This document shows positions 9,284-15,483 of a DNA stretch of 42,817 bases, piece after piece. The DNA is from Pseudorhodobacter sp. (GTDB taxonomy: Bacteria; Pseudomonadota; Alphaproteobacteria; Rhodobacterales; Rhodobacteraceae): NCBI GenBank assembly GCA_029254215.1, contig JAQWYA010000102.1, positions 1 to 42,817 of the forward strand, given 5' to 3'. The position numbers and the translations under genes are program-made. Within the stretch, counting starts at the first letter, position 1. Each line of letters starts with the position of its first letter. A model generated the notes under the pieces. That model ran no database searches, was not told where the DNA came from, and worked only from the letters and a program-made list of their open reading frames with translations.

Positions 9284-12112
9284 ATGCCTGACCTCGTGGT
9301 ACCCGCGTCCGCCGTCACACCGACGGCACCGGCCCCTTTCATGAACCTGCCCGACGTGACCACAGATGATCTTCTGGTTTCGCCTGCCGATTTGTTCGAC
9401 GGTCCCGGCCTGCTTGCCTCCATCAAGGCCCAGATCGCGCACGCGGAACGCCCCGATGCCCGCGAGACCCGAGCCGTCGCCGTGCGCCAGATTGCGGCGG
9501 CGCGGCAAGCGGCCAACGCCAAGCTGGAAGAGGGGTTTCGCCTTGCCCCCCGCAAAGCGCGGGAACTGATCCGCGCGCAGGCCTGGCTAACGGATCGGAT
9601 CGTGGAAACCGTGCTGGCTGTCGCGTCCGATCTGTTGCACCCCTTGCCCAATCCAACCACCTCCGAGCAGATCTGCGTGGTGGCGGTCGGCGGCTATGGC
9701 CGGGCCGAGATGGCGCCCTTTTCCGACGTGGACCTCTTGTTTCTGACCCCCTACAAGGTGACCCCTTGGGCGGAATCGGTCGTCGAATCGATGCTTTATA
9801 TCCTGTGGGACCTGAAGCTGAAGGTCGGTCATTCGACCCGCACCGCAAAGGACTGCCTGCGCCTTGCCCGCGAAGACATCACCATTCGCACCGCCCTTCT
9901 GGAACGACGCTTCATCGCGGGCGAGGAAAGCCTTGCCAAGGATTTGCGCAACAAGCTCTGGTCGGAACTGTTTCGCAAAACAGGCCCTGAATTCATCGAG
10001 GCCAAGCTGGCCGAGCGTGCGGACCGCCACAAACGTCAGGGCGGGCAACGCTATGTGCTGGAGCCGAACGTCAAGGAAGGGAAAGGCGGGCTGCGCGATC
10101 TTCAAACGCTCTACTGGATCGGGAAATACCTGCATGAGGTGCAATCGGCTTCCGGCCTTGTCGCGGCGGGGTTGCTGACAAAGGACGAATACGAAACCTT
10201 CGCACGTGCCGAGAATTTCCTTTGGACTGTGCGCTGCCACCTGCATTACATCACGGCCCGCGCGATGGATCAGCTGACCTTCGATCTTCAGGTCGAGGTT
10301 GCAACCCGGATGGGTTATACCGACACCTCGGGCCGTCGTGCCGTCGAAATCTTCATGCAGCATTACTTTCGCCATGCAACGCGTGTGGGCGAGTTGACGC
10401 GCATCTTCCTGACCCAGCTTGAAGCGCGCCATGCCAAAAGCGAACCCGCCCTGATCGGGTTTTTCCGCCGCCGCAAGAAGCTCAAGCATGGGATGGTGGA
10501 GGTTCAGGGGCGGATCGATTTTGCCCCCGGTGTCAATCTCAAGTCAGAACCGCTCAGCCTGCTGCGGATCTTCGAGGAAGGGTTGCGCACGGGGATGCTG
10601 TTGCACCCGGCAGCGATGCGCCTGATTGCTGCCAACCTGTCCCTGATCGACGACAAGATGCGCGGCGATAAAGAGGCAATCCGCATTTTCCTTGATCTCT
10701 TGCTGCGCCACGGCAACCCCGAACGCGCCTTGCGGCGGATGAATGAACTGGGCGTCTTGTCGGCTTTCATCCCCGAATTCGAAGCGATCGTGGCGATGAT
10801 GCAGTTCAACCTTTACCACCATTACACGGTGGATGAGCATACGATCCAATGCATCTCGACCCTCGCGCAGATCGAGCGGGGGGAATTGGTCGAGGAACTG
10901 CCGGTCGCCTCGGGCATCCTCAAGGAAGGGGTGAACCGCAAGGTCTTGTTCGTGGCCTTGCTGCTGCATGACATCGGTAAGGGACGGCCCGAAGACCACT
11001 CGATCCTTGGCGCGCAGATCGCGCGGCGCGTGGCGCCCCGGCTGGGCCTGAATGCCGAGGAATGCGACACCGTGGAATGGCTGGTGCGCTATCACCTGCT
11101 GATGTCCGACATGGCCCAAAAACGCGACCTGTCCGACCCGCGCACCTTGCGGGACTTTGCCAAGCTCGTGAAAACCCGCAAGCGGCTGGACCTTCTGTGT
11201 GTCCTGACCGTCTGCGATATTCGCGGCGTTGGCCCCGGCACGTGGAACAACTGGAAAGCCATGCTTTTGCGGCAGCTTTACCGCGAAACCGCTGCAGCAC
11301 TTGAGGGCGGGCTGGAAACGCTCAACCGAGAAAACCGCGCCGATGCCGCGAAAAAGCTGCTGCGTGAGCGGCTCAAGGATTGGGACGCCAAAGAGATCCG
11401 CGCCGAAACGGCACGCCATTACCCGCCCTATTGGCAGGGTCTGGCCACCGAGACGCAGGTGGTCTTTGCCAATCTGCTGCGCGACATCAAAGACACCGAA
11501 ATCCGCATTGATCTTCACCCCGATTCCGACCGTGACGCCACGCGCGCGGCCTTTGCGCTTGCCGATCACCCCGGCATCTTTTCGCGGCTGGCAGGGGCCT
11601 TGGCGCTGGTCGGGGCCAATGTGGTCGATGCGCGGACCTATACCTCCAAGGATGGCTATGCCACGGCGGTTTTCTGGATTCAGGATGCCGAGGGCAGCCC
11701 CTATGAGGCAAGCCGCCTGCCCCGCCTGCGCAGCATGATCGGAAAGATCCTTGGCGGCGAGGTTCTGGCCCGCGAGGCTCTGAAGGACCGCGATAAGGTG
11801 AAAAAGCGCGAGCGCGAGTTCCGCTTTCCCACCCATATCATTTTCGACAACGAAGGCTCCGAGATTTACACCATCATCGAGGTGGACACCCGCGACCGCC
11901 CCGGCCTTCTGTATGATCTGACCCGCACGCTGGCCGCCAATAACATCTATATTGCCAGCGCCGTGATCGCGACATTCGGCGCACAGGTTGTGGACAGCTT
12001 TTACGTCAAGGACATGTTCGGCCTCAAGCTGCACACCAAATCCAAACAGGAAGCGTTGGAGAAACGCTTGCGGCAAGCGATTGTCGACGGTGCTGAAAGA
12101 GCAAAACTATGA
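9284..12112 (+). CDS. glnD: [protein-PII] uridylyltransferase/uridylyl-removing enzyme
   Basis: 942 aa; VGGYGRAEMAPFSDVDLLFL nucleotidyltransferase motif, HD domain (LLHDIGKGRPEDHSILGAQ), C-terminal ACT domains (EVDTRDRPGLLYDLTRTLAANNIYIASA). Confidence 0.96.
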   Translation: MPDLVVPASAVTPTAPAPFMNLPDVTTDDLLVSPADLFDGPGLLASIKAQIAHAERPDARETRAVAVRQIAAARQAANAKLEEGFRLAPRKARELIRAQAWLTDRIVETVLAVASDLLHPLPNPTTSEQICVVAVGGYGRAEMAPFSDVDLLFLTPYKVTPWAESVVESMLYILWDLKLKVGHSTRTAKDCLRLAREDITIRTALLERRFIAGEESLAKDLRNKLWSELFRKTGPEFIEAKLAERADRHKRQGGQRYVLEPNVKEGKGGLRDLQTLYWIGKYLHEVQSASGLVAAGLLTKDEYETFARAENFLWTVRCHLHYITARAMDQLTFDLQVEVATRMGYTDTSGRRAVEIFMQHYFRHATRVGELTRIFLTQLEARHAKSEPALIGFFRRRKKLKHGMVEVQGRIDFAPGVNLKSEPLSLLRIFEEGLRTGMLLHPAAMRLIAANLSLIDDKMRGDKEAIRIFLDLLLRHGNPERALRRMNELGVLSAFIPEFEAIVAMMQFNLYHHYTVDEHTIQCISTLAQIERGELVEELPVASGILKEGVNRKVLFVALLLHDIGKGRPEDHSILGAQIARRVAPRLGLNAEECDTVEWLVRYHLLMSDMAQKRDLSDPRTLRDFAKLVKTRKRLDLLCVLTVCDIRGVGPGTWNNWKAMLLRQLYRETAAALEGGLETLNRENRADAAKKLLRERLKDWDAKEIRAETARHYPPYWQGLATETQVVFANLLRDIKDTEIRIDLHPDSDRDATRAAFALADHPGIFSRLAGALALVGANVVDARTYTSKDGYATAVFWIQDAEGSPYEASRLPRLRSMIGKILGGEVLAREALKDRDKVKKREREFRFPTHIIFDNEGSEIYTIIEVDTRDRPGLLYDLTRTLAANNIYIASAVIATFGAQVVDSFYVKDMFGLKLHTKSKQEALEKRLRQAIVDGAERAKL

Positions 12113-13659
12113 AACCCATCCGCCTCGTCCGGGGCTTTCTGACGGTGGGCCTGTGGACGCTGGTCAGCCGTGGTGTGGGCTTTGCCCGTGACATCATGAT
12201 GGCCGCCTATCTTGGCTCCGGCCCTGTGGCCGAGGCTTTTCTGATCGCTTTCTCCCTGCCGAACATGTTTCGCCGCTTCTTCGCGGAAGGGGCGTTCAAC
12301 ATGGCCTTTGTGCCCCTTTTCGCCAAGAAGATGGAGGCGGGCGAAGATGCAAAGGGCTTTGCCAATGATGCTTTCAGCGCGCTTACGGCGGTCTTGCTGG
12401 TCTTTGTGATCCTTGGGTCTTTCGCGATGCCTTGGCTGGTTTGGGCCATGGCCTCGGGCTTTGCCGGGGATGAGAGGTTCGATCTGGCGGTTCTGTTTGG
12501 TCAGATTTCGTTTTCCTACATCCTGTTCATCTCGCTTGTGGCGCTGCTGTCGGGCATCTTGAACACGTTGGGGCGGTTTACCGAGGCGTCTTTCGTGCCC
12601 GTCCTTCTGAACCTGATGTTCATCGCGGCGATGCTTCTGGCCGACCGGCTGGGCTGGGATATGGGCCTGACGCTGGCATGGACGGTTCCGGCCACGGGCA
12701 TCGTGCAATTCGCCTTTACATGGTTCTGGGCCCGGCAGGCGGGGTTTGGCCTGCGCCTGTCGCGCCCGAAGTTCACGCCAGAACTGCGCCATCTGGCCGC
12801 CGTTGCCGCCCCTGCCGTGCTGGCGGGCGGGGTCGTACAAATCAACCTTCTGGTGGGTCGTCAGGTCGCCAGTTTTACCGAGGGCGCCGTGGCGTGGCTG
12901 TCCTATGCGGACCGGCTGTATCAACTGCCCCTCGGGGTGGTGGGCATTGCCATCGGCACGGTCTTGCTGCCCGATCTCAGCCGGCGTCTGCGCAGCGGGG
13001 ACGAGGTGGGCGGGCGCGACAGCTTTAACCGAGGCTGCGAATTCGCGCTGGCACTGACGGTGCCTGCTGCGGTGGCTCTGGTCGTGATTGCGGTGCCGCT
13101 GATCTCGGTCTTGTTCGAACGTGGGGCATTTTCCGCGCAAGACAGCACCCAAACCGCGCTGGCGCTGGCGATCTATGGGGTCGGTCTGCCTGCCTTTGTG
13201 CTGCAAAAAGTGCTGCAACCCTTGTATTATGCCCGCGAAGACACCCGCCGCCCGTTTCAATTCGCCTTGGTGGCGATGGCCGTAAATGCAGGCGTGGCAA
13301 TCGGGTTGATGCCGTTCATCGGCTTTGGCGCGGCGGCACTTGCCACGACGCTGGCGGGCTGGGTCATGGTCTGGCAATTGTGGCGCGGCGTTCGGGGGAT
13401 GGGCGATGCGGCACGGATCGACGCCCGCCTGCGCCACCGCCTGCCCCGGATAGCGCTTGCCTCCGGGATCATGGGCGGGGTGCTGTGGCTGTTGGCGCAA
13501 GCCTTGGGGCCGATGTTGATGACCCCCGGCCTGCGCTATGGCGCGCTGGCTGTGCTGGTCGTCAGCGGAATCCTGACCTATTTCGGCTCGGGCGGGCTGA
13601 TCGGCGCGTTTCGGATGGCGGATTTCGGCAGTGCCCTGCGGCGGCGCAAGAAAGACTAG
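12109..13659 (+). CDS. murJ: murein biosynthesis integral membrane protein MurJ (lipid II flippase)
   Basis: 516 aa; ATGA overlap with glnD; TLVSRGVGFARDIMMAAYLGSGPVAEAFLIAFSLPNMFRRFFAEGAFNMAFVPLF. Confidence 0.95.
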   Translation: MKPIRLVRGFLTVGLWTLVSRGVGFARDIMMAAYLGSGPVAEAFLIAFSLPNMFRRFFAEGAFNMAFVPLFAKKMEAGEDAKGFANDAFSALTAVLLVFVILGSFAMPWLVWAMASGFAGDERFDLAVLFGQISFSYILFISLVALLSGILNTLGRFTEASFVPVLLNLMFIAAMLLADRLGWDMGLTLAWTVPATGIVQFAFTWFWARQAGFGLRLSRPKFTPELRHLAAVAAPAVLAGGVVQINLLVGRQVASFTEGAVAWLSYADRLYQLPLGVVGIAIGTVLLPDLSRRLRSGDEVGGRDSFNRGCEFALALTVPAAVALVVIAVPLISVLFERGAFSAQDSTQTALALAIYGVGLPAFVLQKVLQPLYYAREDTRRPFQFALVAMAVNAGVAIGLMPFIGFGAAALATTLAGWVMVWQLWRGVRGMGDAARIDARLRHRLPRIALASGIMGGVLWLLAQALGPMLMTPGLRYGALAVLVVSGILTYFGSGGLIGAFRMADFGSALRRRKKD

Positions 13660-14345
13660 CGGCGTTCGCGGATCTTTTCGCGCACCCGCACCCAGCCGCC
13701 GGGGCTGACCACGAAGGACAACAGGAACCCGGCGGCAAAGCCCGAAAGCTCGGCCACCCAATCCCAGCCACCGCCGAACAACAGCCCGAACAACAACTGG
13801 ATCCCCATCAGAAAACCGATGAGTGAGAAGGCCCGGTATTGATTGGCCCCAGTCGCCCCCAGATTGGTCCAAAGCAGAAAGGTGAAAGCGCCAATCAGCC
13901 CGTAGACCGCCGGATAGCCCCCAATCAGCGGCGCATGGATCATCGGCAGCGCAGTATAGGCCGCAGCCCCCGCAACCGCCGCGCCGAAAAACACCGCAAG
14001 CACGGCCCACCAGCGAAACACCTCTCCCACCATTTTGCCCAGCGCCAGAAGGAAAACGATCACAAACACAGCATGGGTCAGGTTCAGATGCACCAGCGGA
14101 TAGCTGACCAGCCGCAGGACGTTCTGGGGCGCATAATTGCTTGTTTCGATCATCGCGCGCATCAGGTCGGGCGAGAAGGCAAAGCGCTCCATCGCCTGCA
14201 ACCGCCACCCCACGCCCTGCGCGCCCCCCAGAAGGCCCCGCCCGGCAAGCCCGACGACCAGCTCCATCGCGATGATCGGCAGCGCCAGCACCCAGACGAT
14301 CATCGGCAAGGGGTTCAGCGGGGCCGCGTTGTGATCTTGGTGCAT
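13656..14345 (-). CDS. rhomboid-fold membrane protein, probably catalytically inactive
   Basis: Start chosen at [18 protein letters not shown] (ORF extends to 14396); hydrophobic helices; [41 protein letters not shown] and [14 protein letters not shown] align to rhomboid TM2, TM4 and TM6. Confidence 0.85.
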
Positions 14346-14439
14346 CCTTGCTCTTTCCTCTGGATCGGGCAGTTCATTGACGCCCCTTTCCCACAAGGGT
14401 AAGCGAGGGACGCAGCAGTTTCCAGATGGAGTTATTGAT

Positions 14440-15483
14440 ATGGCCGAGCCGGTCCAAACGCCTCAGGCTTTCGCCCCCCGCATCTTTTCGGGCATCCAGC
14501 CCTCGGGTGGATTGACGCTGGGCAATTATCTGGGCGCGCTCAAGCGCTTTGTGCAAAAGCAGGACGAGGGGATCGAAACTGTCTATTGCCTTGTGGACAT
14601 GCACGCGATCACCGTCTGGCAAGACCCGGCCCGCCTGCGCCAGCAAACGCGCGAGGCGGCGGCCGGTTTCATCGCGGCCGGGATCGACCCTGCGCGCTCT
14701 ATCCTGTTCAACCAAAGTCAGGTGTCGGCCCATGTCGAGCTGGCATGGATCTTCAACACCGTGGCCCGTATGGGCTGGATGAGCCGGATGACCCAGTTCA
14801 AGGACAAGGCTGGCAAGAATTCCGAGAATGTTTCCTTGGGTCTGTTCGCCTATCCGGCGCTGATGGCCGCCGACATTCTAGCCTATAAGGCAACCCATGT
14901 TCCGGTTGGCGAAGACCAGAAACAGCATATCGAGTTGACGCGCGACATCGCCGCAAAGTTCAACAACGACTATGGCGTGAATTTCTTTCCCATCACCGAG
15001 CCGGTGATCGAAGGGGCGGCGACCCGCGTCATGTCCCTGCGCGATGGCACCAAGAAGATGTCGAAATCCGACCCGTCGGACCAAAGCCGCATCAACCTGA
15101 CCGATGACGCCGACACGATCTCTAAGAAGATCCGCAAGGCCAAGACCGACCCGGAGCCGCTGCCCGAAACGGTTGACGGTCTGGCAGACCGCCCGGATGC
15201 GCGCAATCTGGTCAATATCTACGCAGCCCTTGCGGATATGACCCCCGCGCAAGTGATCGCCGAATATGCGGGCGCGCAGTTTGGCACCTTCAAGCCCGCG
15301 CTTGCCGATCTTGCTGTCGCAAAAATGTCCCCCATTACGACGGAAATGACCCGTCTGATGCAGGACGAGGCCGAGATTGACCGCATTCTGGCCAAAGGGG
15401 CCGAGCGCGCAGACGCCATCGCCCGGCCCATCGTCGATGAGGTTTACGACATCATCGGCATGATCCGGTCCCGCTATCGCTGA
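14440..15483 (+). CDS. trpS: tryptophan--tRNA ligase
   Basis: [60 protein letters not shown]. Confidence 0.96.

Follow-up and report, generated by a model that had tools for sequence, protein, structure and literature searches.

The Pseudorhodobacter window (the whole stretch of DNA analyzed here, 42,817 nucleotides) encodes a pseudo-rhomboid, a protein that retains the rhomboid fold and, judged from the residues at its active-site positions, is almost certainly dead as a protease. It fits the definition of a pseudoprotease: the catalytic dyad is lost, and the protein is kept by selection. The gene lies antiparallel to both of its neighbors, murJ and trpS.

13656 to 14345, minus strand: pseudo-rhomboid gene, encoding 229 residues with six predicted transmembrane (TM) helices and a rhomboid-like L1 region.
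12109 to 13659, plus strand: murJ (lipid II flippase), convergent; the murJ and rhomboid stops overlap by four bases.
14440 to 15483, plus strand: trpS, divergent from the rhomboid gene; a 94-base upstream region is common to both.

The pseudo-rhomboid reading frame runs on the minus strand from an ATG codon at 14345 to the stop at 13656; an upstream TTG codon at 14396 is a possible alternative start, and the orthologs favor the ATG. A 735-residue open frame (12001 to 14208, minus strand), antisense to murJ, continues across the rhomboid gene and appears to be a fortuitous product of the high GC content.

The rhomboid fold is kept by the pseudo-rhomboid. The protein matches the Pfam Rhomboid family (PF01694) with an E-value of 4.3e-15 and a score of 56.6 bits against a cut-off of 22.6, and the AlphaFold2 model of all 229 residues reaches a mean pLDDT of 87.9 and a pTM of 0.83.

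Residues 15-35, 89-109, 112-132, 144-160, 169-190 and 195-213: helices of the six-TM rhomboid fold, taken from the model.

When the model was compared with the PDB using Foldseek, GlpG structures ranked first (TM-scores of 0.69-0.74, normalized by target, for the top three matches), followed by human iRhom2 and iRhom1. A phmmer search of the PDB with the single pseudo-rhomboid sequence gave no match, whereas a profile did find matches. The protein scores far below the cut-offs of two specialized NCBIfam families, the GlpG equivalog TIGR04239 (11.8 versus 250) and rhombosortase TIGR03902 (17 versus 84). The earlier note, working from an alignment by eye, had concluded that the fold was retained and the protease lost; the Pfam match, the GlpG-like model and the dyad columns bear this out, and the profile alignment that it had proposed as a check upholds its residue correspondence.

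What replaces the catalytic residues? Residue correspondence was established by aligning a profile of 65 window-like proteins to Haemophilus influenzae GlpG, and columns were counted in 119 distinct orthologs and 31 intact rhomboids aligned in the same way. GlpG Ser201, Gly202, His254 and Asn154 correspond to Tyr144, Pro145, Glu199 and Val95, exactly the replacements named from the alignment by eye, and Ser, Gly, His and Asn are invariant at these columns in all 31 intact rhomboids.

13914 to 13916, minus strand: Tyr144 codon, position of the Ser201 nucleophile; Tyr 88, Phe 18, Trp 3, Met 3, Ser 3, Thr 2 and His 2 among 119 orthologs.
13911 to 13913, minus strand: Pro145 codon, Gly202 position; Pro in 113 of 119 orthologs, Gly in 31 of 31 intact rhomboids.
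13749 to 13751, minus strand: Glu199 codon, His254 position; Asp in 78 and Glu in 37 of 119 orthologs, His never.
14061 to 14063, minus strand: Val95 codon, Asn154 oxyanion position; Val 65, Ala 37, Ser 9, Gly 7 and Cys 1 among 119 orthologs, Asn never.

Three features of rhomboid proteases are accordingly replaced, namely the GxSG serine of TM4 by Tyr144, the TM6 histidine by Glu199 and the TM2 asparagine by Val95. The surrounding landmarks are kept: Arg78 (Arg137 in GlpG), His86 (His145), His91 (His150), Tyr148 (Tyr205; present in 109 of 119 orthologs) and the GxxxG glycines Gly202 and Gly206. Serine occurs at position 144 in only three orthologs (L163, L164 and L173, with the motif GSSP), which have Asp or Asn at the His position and lack both the catalytic His and the catalytic Asn. 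The loss is no private mutation of the window, given that all 119 orthologs have lost the catalytic His and Asn. Tyr and Val are the commonest residues in the columns of Tyr144 and Val95, and position 199 is mostly Asp (78) rather than Glu (37).

Several other accounts of these columns were ruled out. The profile alignment and column counts place no other Ser/His pair at the active-site positions, which excludes a hidden alternative pair. Tyr144 is not a new nucleophile, since Phe, Trp and Met stand in its place, and sequencing error or chance is excluded by the complete lack of His at 199 and Asn at 95 among 119 orthologs, with Ser144 in three. A local error or pseudogene is ruled out by the breadth of the gene across the family and by its dN/dS ratio.

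Outside the active site, three elements characterize the protein.

14112 to 14114, minus strand: Arg78, at the Arg137 position of the WR motif; in 116 of 119 orthologs, with Met, Ser or Thr in most intact relatives.
13728 to 13742, minus strand: Gly202 to Gly206, the retained GxxxG of TM6, placed by column alignment.
13659 to 13703, minus strand: basic C-terminal tail, Pro215 to Arg229 (PGGWxR...RxR), kept in the pseudo-rhomboid clade and not a conserved element in intact relatives.

The tail consensus of the clade is PGG[WF]xR...RxR. In the WR motif the Arg is kept and the Trp is not at its canonical position. With regard to covariation between Arg78 and the acid at position 199, two of the three rows without Arg78 also lack the acid, which are too few events to use. 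Glu28, a membrane acid, is common to most intact relatives, and there is no second membrane acid specific to the clade. A conserved N-terminal NPLP motif seemed at first to mark the clade and was rejected as a clade-specific feature because a comparable motif, FNAPP, occurs in rhomboids outside the family.

Orthologs were gathered from whole genomes and from 80 named contigs (Pseudorhodobacter, Rhodobacter, Tabrizicola, Gemmobacter, Rhodovulum, Thioclava, Actibacterium and others). Any match was found in 387 of 398 Rhodobacteraceae genomes, leaving 11 without one; among the 25 matches weaker than about 1e-38, three proved to be pseudo-rhomboids, and the rest were intact relatives or short matches. 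By this reckoning, a count by profile score in which not every sequence was read, about 365 of the 398 genomes (92%) carry the pseudo-rhomboid. No match elsewhere in the class is better than 8e-20, and the catalytic residues are present in those copies that were read. The dead rhomboid is under purifying selection: the median dN/dS over 60 pairs of related species, which are not independent of one another, is 0.156, compared with 0.145 for murJ and 0.097 for trpS (Nei-Gojobori method, own implementation). A ratio this low makes a function very likely. Some lineages lack the gene, which is therefore not essential everywhere. In short, the protease-dead state is family-wide, ancient and selected.

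The genomic neighborhood is constant on one side. Of 121 loci, 120 have trpS next to the pseudo-rhomboid gene and divergent from it, and the stretch around the gene contains murJ in 98, mostly near and convergent (some loci end early). In several Pseudorhodobacter species trpS is adjacent and murJ is not; downstream of the rhomboid gene, two such loci (L045 and L053) have a sugar transferase-like or an elongation factor P-like gene, names given by reading the sequences. One typical Rhodobacteraceae locus (L118) comes from a metagenome-assembled record titled Exiguobacterium profundum isolate SSD5, whose organism label looks wrong.

How did a dead rhomboid come to occupy this site? In other Alphaproteobacteria and in family members that lack the rhomboid gene, trpS commonly comes immediately after murJ, and usp and nifU are often present as well. 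The murJ-trpS arrangement is the older alphaproteobacterial order, and the rhomboid gene was inserted between the two, antiparallel to both. An intact Ser/His/Asn rhomboid is found at the same locus in nine family genomes, with both flanks at L168, L169, L170, L172, L175 and L179, the trpS flank seen at L174 and L185, and the murJ flank seen at L186. In a TrpS tree, which is independent of the rhomboid sequence, a crown with support of 98/94 holds all pseudo-rhomboid lineages except the long-branch pair L163/L164, and the intact same-locus lineages lie outside it; a single clade of all pseudo-rhomboid lineages is not rejected on this tree (p-AU 0.55). The rhomboid tree likewise recovers one pseudo-rhomboid clade (support 100/99). 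The active-site columns do not drive this grouping, as the clade stays (98/98) after their removal. Where the clade falls with respect to intact paralogs from other genomic sites is weakly resolved.

Because the lineages with an intact copy at this locus diverge earlier in the TrpS tree than nearly all pseudo-rhomboid lineages, catalysis was probably lost in place and once, and the dead protein was then kept with its clade-specific basic tail. L163, L164, L173 and the Thr-bearing L037 group together at or near the base of the pseudo-rhomboid clade. This grouping suggests, tentatively because the branches are long, that Ser was the last of the three catalytic residues to go, after His and Asn, and the Ser-keeping L163, L164 and L173 possibly represent an intermediate stage of the loss. 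The simplest history is that an intact rhomboid at the site lost catalysis in one event, was retained almost universally and later disappeared from some lineages. At L188 and L192 the rhomboid gene is gone, and murJ and trpS are adjacent. A short open frame beside trpS at L197 (1143 to 1538, minus strand) looks like a truncated pseudo-rhomboid remnant.

What, then, might a rhomboid that does not cut be doing? Because catalysis has been lost yet the protein is strongly conserved, the pseudo-rhomboid may bind without cutting, and we give an even chance to a non-proteolytic role as a client-binding adaptor or chaperone. Client TM segments would still be bound through the rhomboid gate and the former active-site cavity, helped by a locally thinned membrane around the fold, and would be handed over or protected instead of being cut. 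The Tyr/Pro/acidic triad would reshape the old active site for binding, and the conserved basic tail is a candidate docking site for a cytosolic partner; most likely, the protein would act as a chaperone or would deliver substrates, as an adaptor, to a membrane protease such as FtsH. An inactive mutant of the Bacillus subtilis rhomboid YqgP still presents MgtE to FtsH (PMC7231995). Derlins bind and extract membrane substrates via rhomboid motifs and lipid thinning, and the Derlin Dfm1, which thins lipid, needs its WR and GxxxG motifs for substrate binding (PMC8641752). The retention of Arg78 and GxxxG, motifs comparable with those of Dfm1, favors an adaptor. However, YqgP works as an adaptor only when its active site is free (PMC7231995), whereas a bulky aromatic residue mostly fills the Ser position here; in addition, the WR motif has not kept its Trp in the canonical position, and some lineages lack the gene. 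More tentatively, the protein could be a bacterial Derlin counterpart, that is, a family-wide, tail-bearing, dedicated adaptor or chaperone for membrane-protein quality control whose intact ancestor type persists at the same locus in earlier-branching lineages. The genome context of the pseudo-rhomboid loci points to no pathway.

Other functions fit the data less comfortably. The dead protein could act in the manner of iRhoms, which inhibit rhomboid signaling via the ER quality-control machinery (PMC3149277), by binding or inhibiting intact rhomboid proteases of the same cell or by competing for their substrates. The window genome (G000) encodes two other rhomboids over the Pfam cut-off (contigs C144 and C22; L031 and L032), both with GASG and the TM6 His, and the organism therefore keeps intact rhomboid proteases; several family genomes likewise carry a pseudo-rhomboid together with an intact relative. 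However, intact relatives of the subfamily are patchy and the pseudo-rhomboid gene is nearly constant, and we regard such regulation as unlikely. It is equally unlikely that the protein serves a single membrane protein or complex, such as MurJ or one of the cell envelope, as its dedicated partner or chaperone. Although the rhomboid gene lies close to murJ and converges with it at most of the 98 loci that have both, it is on the opposite strand, the murJ-trpS order predates its insertion, and other genes lie downstream at L045 and L053; MurJ was set aside as the leading partner on these grounds. The convergent murJ gene to which the earlier note drew attention is thus real in the window and says little about function.

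An adaptor or chaperone also has to be weighed against new chemistry or a small ligand, in which the acid at the His254 position and its neighbors would form a new site for acid catalysis or for ion or lipid binding. Asp or Glu at position 199 in 115 of 119 orthologs and the frequent Tyr148 are compatible with such a site, but Phe, Trp or Met replaces Tyr144 in 24 of 119, so the Tyr hydroxyl is dispensable, and a second clade-specific membrane acid is lacking; this reading is improbable. That the protein is a rhomboid protease relic, neutral or in decay, is hardly credible. The lineages without the gene and the L197 remnant could be adduced for it, but a dN/dS near 0.16, close to that of murJ, refutes decay for the clade, length and tail are conserved, and about 92% of genomes by score keep the gene.

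Rhomboid pseudoproteases have been studied almost only in eukaryotes. Neither this gene nor any bacterial pseudo-rhomboid was reported in the open-licence papers searched, and isolated inactive members from bacteria may be listed in earlier surveys. YqgP, which has been put forward as a clue to how pseudoproteases arose, is catalytically active. The Rhodobacteraceae offer both states: nearly every genome has a dead rhomboid, and in earlier branches the locus holds an intact one. Such before-and-after pairs, many of whose carriers are cultured species, allow one to ask what a non-cutting rhomboid does, and the six intact rhomboids with both flanks are ideal comparison proteins. In hundreds of genomes, the automatic annotation "intramembrane serine protease" is probably mistaken.

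Compared with GlpG-type proteases (PF01694), the pseudo-rhomboid has the same fold, six TM helices, L1 region, His145/His150, Arg137, Tyr205 and GxxxG, and differs in the replacement of all four of Ser201, Gly202, His254 and Asn154. The intact same-locus rhomboids (L168-L170, L172, L175 and L179) share its site, orientation and subfamily (Glu in TM1, Arg in L1), but they have a GASG-type Ser, AHLGG and the Asn, lack the PGGW..RxR tail and mostly have a residue other than Arg at position 78. YqgP is likewise a bacterial rhomboid, with a demonstrated non-proteolytic function (PMC7231995); unlike the pseudo-rhomboid, it has the dyad and a cytosolic metal-binding N-terminal domain.

The comparison with iRhoms and Derlins drawn in the earlier note stands as an analogy of function and fails as membership. 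iRhoms are dyad-less, have brought a proline into the active-site motif and come second to GlpG in both the fold and the profile matches; however, they possess a long N-terminus and an iRhom homology domain, whereas the 229-residue pseudo-rhomboid has a short N-terminus and no such domain. A proline in this motif disrupts activity, as iRhoms show and as is also seen in bacterial AarA; the iRhom proline precedes the Ser position (PMC3149277), whereas the pseudo-rhomboid proline follows it. Derlins (Der1, Dfm1 and Derlin-1) are eukaryotic ER proteins, and the pseudo-rhomboid has no Derlin family among its Pfam matches at E ≤ 1 and lacks the WR Trp at its canonical place. Nevertheless, the Derlins and the pseudo-rhomboid have in common a dyad-less rhomboid fold and, as in Dfm1, the Arg of the WR motif and GxxxG.
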